Of a stretch of 64,000 nt of DNA, positions 51,709 through 52,448 are shown one piece after another. Origin of the DNA: Colwellia ponticola (GTDB lineage Bacteria; Pseudomonadota; Gammaproteobacteria; Enterobacterales; Alteromonadaceae). The stretch covers positions 124,001 through 188,000 of the forward strand of contig NZ_SZVP01000001.1 in assembly GCF_005885605.1 (NCBI RefSeq), given 5' to 3'. The notes beneath the pieces were generated by a model. That model was not told the DNA's origin. It was given only the letters and a program-made list of their open reading frames with translations, and did not search any database. Position numbers and translations under genes: made by a program. How positions within the stretch are numbered: position 1 is the first letter of the stretch; every line of letters begins with the position of its first letter.

Positions 51709-51717
51709 AATTTATTT
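51709..51717. repeat. Target-site duplication, left copy
   Basis: AATTTATTT directly abuts the left end of the IS50-like element and is repeated exactly at 52440-52448. Nine base pairs is the length produced by Tn5/IS50 transposition. Confidence 0.85.
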
Positions 51718-52439
51718 CTGTCTCTTGATCACAAGTTATACCTCACTGGCACGTTTTGCGTGGTAACGCATACCGTATAATCATTAACAGATATTGTCGC
51801 GGTGGCGACGACACCCAAGGGGCGACGTACCGCCGCGCCTCCCCTTGGAACCCCTGCGACGCCCAACTCAGCAAACCACTCCATAACAAACGTGCGTAAT
51901 GCTCGATACCTGCCGATTTATCGTCCATGAACAGCGGCAGCCCTCGACGTCCTGTCTCGGGTCGAGTATTACCTTTACACCTTTGTCATTTCATTGCTGA
52001 GATGGGAATAAGGCTTTTGGCAGTATTTGAGTACATAACTCTTTTCAAAATTTTTTGTTCCCAAAAACACAATAAATAATTAAACTCTAAACGATATCCA
52101 CAAGCATAAAATCTGCGTAAACAAACGCTGGAATGAAGGAAAGTGTTCACGTATGTTCATCATGGATGATGAACAAAGCGATGTAGGGCATGGATGCCCA
52201 TTCAGCGCTGTTACGTCGATAACACTTGAGGGAATGTAAGATTACGTTTGGGTCGCAGCGCCTGGGGATTCCAAAGGGGACTGGGCGTTTAGCCCCCTTT
52301 GGGTGTTGTCGCCACCGCGACGCGGAAGAAATAAAGTGCACAAACAGTAATTGTTACCACCTAATGTGCAAAAATTGTATCTCGTTGCCACGCTCTGCGC
52401 TGTCTCTTATATACGAGTACACTTGTGTATAAGAGACAG
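51718..52439. mobile_element. 722-bp non-autonomous element with Tn5/IS50-type ends
   Basis: The left 19 bp, CTGTCTCTTGATCACAAGT (51718-51736), and the right 19 bp read inward, CTGTCTCTTATACACAAGT (complement of 52421-52439), agree at 16 of 19. The known IS50 outside end is CTGACTCTTATACACAAGT, so the right end differs only at position 4. The left end equals the IS50 inside end over positions 1-14. A perfect 9-bp duplication flanks the element. The interior is GC-richer than the host, has subterminal arms 51796-51818 / 52299-52321 (22 of 23 complementary), and encodes no recognisable transposase. It would move only with an enzyme supplied from elsewhere. Confidence 0.85.
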
Positions 52440-52448
52440 AATTTATTT
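52440..52448. repeat. Target-site duplication, right copy
   Basis: AATTTATTT, identical to 51709-51717. Removing the element and one copy restores a hairpin-like site, with CGTCAT and CTGAA facing TTCAG and ATGACG. Confidence 0.85.

Follow-up and report, generated by a model that had tools for sequence, protein, structure and literature searches.

A Gene-Less IS50-Type Element Carrying a Nested Hairpin Repeat in Colwellia ponticola

INTRODUCTION

The IS50 subgroup of the IS4 family is characterized, in the sections of PMC2266710 that define it, by the terminal consensus CW------Y---CA-A--W-, direct repeats of 8-9 bp, and a size of 1350-1550 bp. Insertion in palindromic repeats has been published for ISRm22 of the IS4 family, as recorded in part of PMC1525189. 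A review of MITEs refers to IS50/Tn5 at three points, never for MITEs of that group (PMC10969869). A literature search, judged by titles, found no paper on gene-less IS50-group elements or IS50-group MITEs, and a literature text search for the two 19-mers described below found no occurrence. Patents reportedly cover a Tn5-like transposase from Vibrio harveyi whose ends are similar; the literature search did not turn one up. TwoAYGGAY, which also bears on this locus, is described in the relevant part of PMC2864571 as probably an RNA that is not cis-regulatory, with no function assigned.

Here, we describe a 722-bp element in a 64,000-nucleotide stretch of the C. ponticola genome (contig NZ_SZVP01000001.1, positions 124,001 to 188,000), hereafter referred to as the window. 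By its ends, the nearest system is a 1496-bp IS of Psychromonas ossibalaenae (L169-L171), whose two 19-bp ends are identical to those of the element and whose insertion sites are palindromic too. Unlike that IS, the element has 722 bp, lacks a transposase, and holds a host repeat inside. It resembles prokaryotic MITEs in its terminal inverted repeats, its target duplication, and the absence of a gene, and differs from them in being single-copy and carrying another dispersed repeat.

RESULTS

A 722-bp element with IS50-type ends and a perfect target-site duplication

The element occupies positions 51718-52439 of the window. It is bounded by two 19-bp IS50-type ends and a 9-bp duplication, and a transposase is absent.

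51709..51717, + strand: left copy of the target-site duplication, AATTTATTT, found by sequence comparison
51718..51736, + strand: left IS50-type end, CTGTCTCTTGATCACAAGT, identical to the transposase-distal (3') end seen in natural IS50-group elements
52400..52418, + strand: third IS50-type end, CTGTCTCTTATATACGAGT, internal and inverted, with 2 bp between it and the outer right end
52421..52439, - strand (read inward): right IS50-type end, CTGTCTCTTATACACAAGT, identical to the transposase-proximal (5') end seen in natural IS50-group elements
52440..52448, + strand: right copy of the target-site duplication, AATTTATTT, found by sequence comparison

The direct repeat is identical at 9/9 positions and flush with both element ends. 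Relative to transposase-bearing elements, the left side of the element is the 3' end and the right side is the 5' end. A 40-bp near-palindrome forms the right edge (52400-52439). All open reading frames overlapping the element are shorter than 90 amino acids, and tblastn with the genome's own Tn5-type transposase gave no match at the three loci with the element (L032, L034, and L035). The preliminary description of this DNA, made from the sequence alone, had reported 19-bp IS50-type ends and a perfect 9-bp duplication around 722 bp without a transposase, and the sequence checks and tblastn agree with it. It had missed the third end at 52400-52418 and a separate dispersed repeat at 51796-52321.

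Allowing up to 3 mismatches, CTGTCTCTTATACACAAGT occurs at four sites in the 3.72-Mb genome, three within the element and one at a full IS, compared to one site for the reversed control pattern. A second whole copy of the element was not found among the matches listed for its own genome, 39 genus genomes, or 394 order genomes. No more than 14 candidates per genome were scored in the genus search and two in the order-wide DNA search, so that rare copies could be missed. PLSDB plasmids gave no match to the 722 bp.

Both 19-mers fit the IS50-subgroup consensus as given in the subgroup's definition (PMC2266710), and the 9-bp duplication lies within the 8-9 bp range. The subgroup's size and DDE/YREK transposase are both lacking here, at 722 bp without a transposase; the IS50-group IS of the same genome (see below) has both. 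Because of its 722 bp and the absent transposase, the element is filed as a non-autonomous derivative rather than as an IS. It has the inverted ends, target duplication, and gene-less interior of a MITE, and its own genome holds one copy in place of the several expected. A Tn5-like composite transposon was considered and rejected, as there are no two flanking IS50 copies, only 19-bp ends, and no transposase reading frame.

The two ends form a natural pair

The ends were compared with those of IS50-group elements at 80 loci, retained out of 292 from a scan of contigs with a six-transposase alignment as those encoding a relative. With a limit of 6 mismatches, ends were found on both sides at 68/80 loci. 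Exact matches were found at 20/80 loci for the left 19-mer, as the 3' end, and at 7/80 for the right 19-mer, as the 5' end. The two 19-mers occur together as an exact end pair at three of the 80 loci (L169-L171), all in one species, P. ossibalaenae; locus L089 (genome G254) is 100% identical to this IS over 1499-1519 bp. Since the same 19-mers bound autonomous IS50-group elements, the end pair of the C. ponticola element is a natural 5'/3' pair. At up to 1 mismatch, CTGTCTCTTGATCACAAGT is present in 20/394 order genomes, its own included; the control entries listed are all 0.

The right end has one mismatch to the IS50 outside end, as the preliminary description had counted, and the left end has four and three mismatches to the outside and inside ends, respectively. 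That description had also regarded the ends as a natural mosaic. This was not borne out: relative to the letters of the engineered mosaic end (ME) given in the pertinent part of PMC2229646, the right end has 2 mismatches and the left end 5, the ME is an end at 0/80 IS50-group loci, and the same pair bounds full P. ossibalaenae ISs. The T at position 4, which had been likened to that of the mosaic end, is indeed present and is the usual natural base, in 22/28 distinct 5' ends and 20/20 distinct 3' ends (ends within 5 mismatches).

Two observations were made on other loci. At L223 (1523-3030, the same IS as L155), an IS50-group IS has both ends of the ATACACA type. At L083, L078, and L066, a terminator-like hairpin followed by a T run was seen by eye just inside the IS 5' end, where it may prevent read-through into the transposase gene.

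The element lies at the center of a dispersed palindrome

The joined flanks of the element read CGTCATCCTGAATTTATTTCAGGGTCAGCATGACG, and the insertion is at the center of a dispersed palindrome, CCTGAATTTATTTCAGG. Uninterrupted paralogues of the joined flanks are present in the same genome (G000:C109 and C166), matching at 39/40, 38/41, 36/39 (four times), and 33/35 positions, with one match of 85% over 62 positions. In a search for an orthologous empty site in the genus, matches of the joined flanks outside the own genome consisted for the most part of the right flank's coding side (321-402 of the query) and the target repeat (128-164), with a few short pieces. The empty site is thus represented by paralogous repeats of the own genome.

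Palindromic targets are a feature of IS50-group duplications: in 31 distinct perfect ones, 60/136 pairs are complementary, compared to 34.5 in letter shuffles, with 0/5000 shuffles reaching 60. The duplication AATTTATTT is without the terminal G/C common in IS50-group duplications. Elsewhere in the genome, locus L131 (G000:C109:336050-336700) holds four near-tandem copies of the target palindrome, 128-130 bp apart.

An intact IS50-group IS in the same genome

The preliminary description had anticipated a full IS50-like transposase elsewhere in the genome or its relatives and proposed searching for it and for further copies of the whole element. The genome search retrieved one intact IS50-group element; the other search retrieved no copy among the matches listed. 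The IS (G000:C87:55961-57466) has 1506 bp, ends CTGTCTCTTATACACAAAT and CTGTCTCTTGATCACATTT, and a 10-bp duplication, ATCCTGACAC. Its 465-amino-acid transposase (L030:4059-5456) is a homologue of the Tn5 transposase 1mus (E value of 9e-89) and keeps D93, D194, Y323, R326, E330, and K337. In a whole-protein scan, it scores 65.6 for PF14706 (cut-off, 24) and 23 for PF01609 (cut-off, 23). PF02281 reaches 24.2 in the same scan, against a cut-off of 26.7, and 27.6, above the cut-off, in the genome search. PF02281 matches are found in 3/41 genomes (the own genome, 24 of the same genus, and 16 others), once in the own genome. NF033590 matches 9/39 genus genomes, four above the cut-off, and is unbroken over the full profile only in C. 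ponticola (G000).

The IS and the element share both end types, ATACACA at the 5' end and GATCACA at the 3' end, and the IS transposase is intact. They differ in the 10-bp duplication of the IS and in the subterminal 80-100 bases, which by eye show no resemblance. The IS may or may not be the helper of the 722-bp element. Because its ends differ from those of the element at 1 (5') and 2 (3') positions and the exactly matching IS is in another genus, we do not pin the helper down to it.

The cargo is a genus-wide dispersed repeat with paired hairpins

Most of the interior is a full copy of a repeat dispersed throughout the genus.

51796..52321, + strand: full copy of the genus-wide dispersed repeat, 73% of the element
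51796..51822, + strand: left arm of the inverted repeat that bounds it, 27 nt, 93% complementary
52149..52215, + strand: sub-threshold match to Rfam RF01731 (TwoAYGGAY), 36.2 bits, gathering score 43
52154..52175, + strand: hairpin 1, TGTTCATCATGGATGATGAACA, loop ATGGAT (folding and covariation)
52186..52199, + strand: hairpin 2, GGGCATGGATGCCC, loop ATGGAT (folding and covariation)
52295..52321, - strand: right arm of the bounding inverted repeat (inverted-repeat match)

The repeat matches 35/39 genus genomes, the own genome included, and 12 further full-length copies, with 67-81% identity, are present among the loci examined. Among the matches listed, alignment edges recur at element positions 79 and 604, and only the window copy reaches IS50 ends through the 722 bp; the others give short end or hairpin-arm matches.

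Covariation was assessed over element positions 427-522 in 42 distinct copies, most from the genus and four or more from other genera in the family, excluding hits of fewer than 56 query bases and pieces of fewer than 85 bases. Across the two hairpins, 625/668 cells are paired (93.6%) and 11/16 pairs have changed on both sides, compared to 30-57% paired and 1-3 pairs with double-sided changes in slid controls; the structure was drawn from the window copy, which favors the unslid version. The loop contains GGA in 40/42 copies for hairpin 1 and in 42/42 for hairpin 2, and takes the form ANGGAT in 36/42 and 41/42, respectively. The element has four GGA-loop hairpins with stems of at least 5, compared to 1.7 in mononucleotide shuffles, a weak control.

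With its two adjacent GGA-loop hairpins, the cargo is similar to TwoAYGGAY RNA, and its stems covary. In contrast to that RNA, the window copy (36.2 bits) stays below the gathering score of 43, the loops are mostly ANGGAT, and the repeats are dispersed, here within transposon ends. Other copies reach 43-52 bits, two in the own genome scoring 46.0, and at an E value of up to 0.001 RF01731 is present in 25/39 genus genomes, above the cut-off in seven. RF01731 shares Rfam clan CL00106 (Csr/Rsm) with RsmY, and a CsrA-binding role of the cargo hairpins is a matter of speculation. Further copies of the dispersed repeat, at L024, L027, and L036-L041, have GTCGCGGTGGCGAC ends and hairpins of the TwoAYGGAY type; several lie near C. 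ponticola contig ends.

Hairpin-repeat arms and the third end

Between the cargo and the ends lie copies of a second repeat.

51737..51775, + strand: palindromic hairpin repeat copy, matching at 30/39 positions the IS50-group target repeat of Psychromonas sp. Urea-02u-13
52378..52399, + strand: half copy of that hairpin repeat, 21/22 positions, broken after CGCTCTGCG

The break after CGCTCTGCG is at the same point as an IS50-group insertion in Psychromonas sp. Urea-02u-13, and the internal end at 52400 starts there. As the half hairpin repeat and the internal end meet exactly at the Psychromonas insertion point, the arrangement suggests that an earlier IS50-type insertion at 52400 was later reduced to its end, in an order of events that we infer from the sequence. 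The right arm (52316-52420) has no match in any other of the 39 genus genomes; in G023, the right flank of the repeat body (to 52378) also adjoins the repeat, there lacking IS50 ends. In Psychromonas, IS50-group elements were seen inside CCCACGCTCTGCGTGG-like hairpin repeats at L155, L169-L171, and L076, and L229 (G094, with the same genus label as G254) has a solo IS50-type end inside such a repeat.

Gene-less elements with IS50-type ends in another family

In two genomes of another family (G139 and G287, family f25), end patterns with 3 or fewer mismatches number 11 and 13, respectively, compared to 0 and 1 for the reversed control. A full-length NF033590 transposase was not found in G139, and G287 gave one broken match. 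Five distinct gene-less elements of 356-410 bp, with ends close to CTGTCTCTTRGTCACAAGT, were delimited.

L068, 1110-1519: gene-less element
L258, 1164-1519: gene-less element
L268, 1501-1857: gene-less element
L069, 1501-1862: gene-less element
L263, 1159-1519: gene-less element

Their flanking 9-mers agree at 6-8/9 positions and are perfect in none, the targets are mostly GC...AGC, and there are several copies per genome. In the 400 kb of G287 scanned, relatives of the five elements are present at seven places, four of at least 356 bp and three being pieces of 65-269 bp without ends. All four have an IS50-type end at one or both sides, and two have both ends within 1 mismatch; in the remaining two, the second end is 5 mismatches off in one and shifted by one base (7 mismatches ungapped) in the other. 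Counted at 5 mismatches, three places have both ends, one has one end, and three have none, with a background of 2/2000 random stretches.

All five elements have GGA-loop hairpins on both strands; with stems of at least 5, these number 2-6, compared to 0.9-1.2 in mononucleotide shuffles, again a weak control. Rfam at the gathering score gave no hit at four of the loci from these genomes (L068, L069, L084, and L085), and RF01731 at E values up to 1 gave none at those scanned, L068 and L069 among them. For this reason, the hairpins are not called TwoAYGGAY. The pairing of IS50-type ends with GGA-loop hairpins may recur.

DISCUSSION

The segment at 51718-52439 most probably belongs, as a non-autonomous element, to the IS50 (Tn5) subgroup of the IS4 family; it is inserted in a dispersed palindrome and carries a nested repeat as cargo. 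A transposase of the IS50 group, acting in trans, would bind both 19-bp ends, pair them, and cut them, and the excised piece would insert with a 9-bp stagger at the center of the palindrome. The ends would act as a normal 5'/3' pair, as in P. ossibalaenae, and enclose what appears to be a TwoAYGGAY-type genus repeat placed between the full and half copies of the Psychromonas IS50-target hairpin repeat. Counting against this explanation are the single copy, the mismatches to the ends of the own-genome IS together with the exactly matching IS lying in another genus, the duplication without terminal G/C, the size outside 1350-1550 bp, and the third end with its 40-bp near-palindrome.

The single copy would also suit a fossil, in which the middle of a larger IS50-type transposon or composite was lost after insertion and the remaining 722-bp unit has been immobile since, and the third inverted end and the half hairpin repeat on the right look like remnants of a second insertion. 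This origin is possible, if somewhat doubtful: all 19 bp of each outer end are preserved, with a perfect duplication as opposed to the decayed ones (6-8/9) of the five G139/G287 elements, and the full repeat copy between the ends is not expected after a simple deletion inside an IS. We regard it as unlikely that the mobile unit is instead the dispersed repeat at 51796-52321, which would have entered an older IS50-type element of ~196 bp, so that the IS50 ends are only its address. The repeat is spread through the genus without IS50 ends, among the matches listed, and has inverted repeats of its own at its boundaries; however, no copy of the supposed 196-bp host was found among the matches listed, and the flank adjoining the repeat in G023 probably came with the repeat.

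Tn5-based libraries give 9-bp duplications, and a doubled mosaic end would look much like the near-palindrome at 52400-52439, as if mosaic ends or a doubled junction adapter from a Nextera library had been left in the assembly. Such an artefact is highly improbable, given that the three ends are 2, 4, and 5 positions off the ME, the junction has substitutions and 2 extra bases, and the outer end sequences are those of real ISs in named isolates. The probability that unrelated end-like sequences flank a repeat by chance is close to nil, with two exact natural ends, a flush 9-bp duplication, and all four genomic end matches in the element or the IS, against one for the reversed control.

For the non-autonomous IS50-subgroup element that we favor, the ends are ordinary in kind and the gene-less carrier is unusual. 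What is new is that a hairpin repeat is nested inside, that a third end is present, and that IS50-type ends may recurrently be paired with GGA-loop hairpins. As a rather improbable extension, IS50-type ends could serve repeatedly as vehicles for arrays of GGA-loop hairpins in two or more families of the order, with Tn5-type transposition scattering CsrA/RsmA-binding RNA sites as mobile sponges or switches. Natural ends near the laboratory's optimized mosaic end are ordinary among the relatives of this host, and the transposases of the named full elements could be tried. The element draws attention to gene-less IS50-group elements and raises the possibility that Tn5-type transposition is connected with a structured RNA motif that has no assigned function in the corresponding part of PMC2864571.
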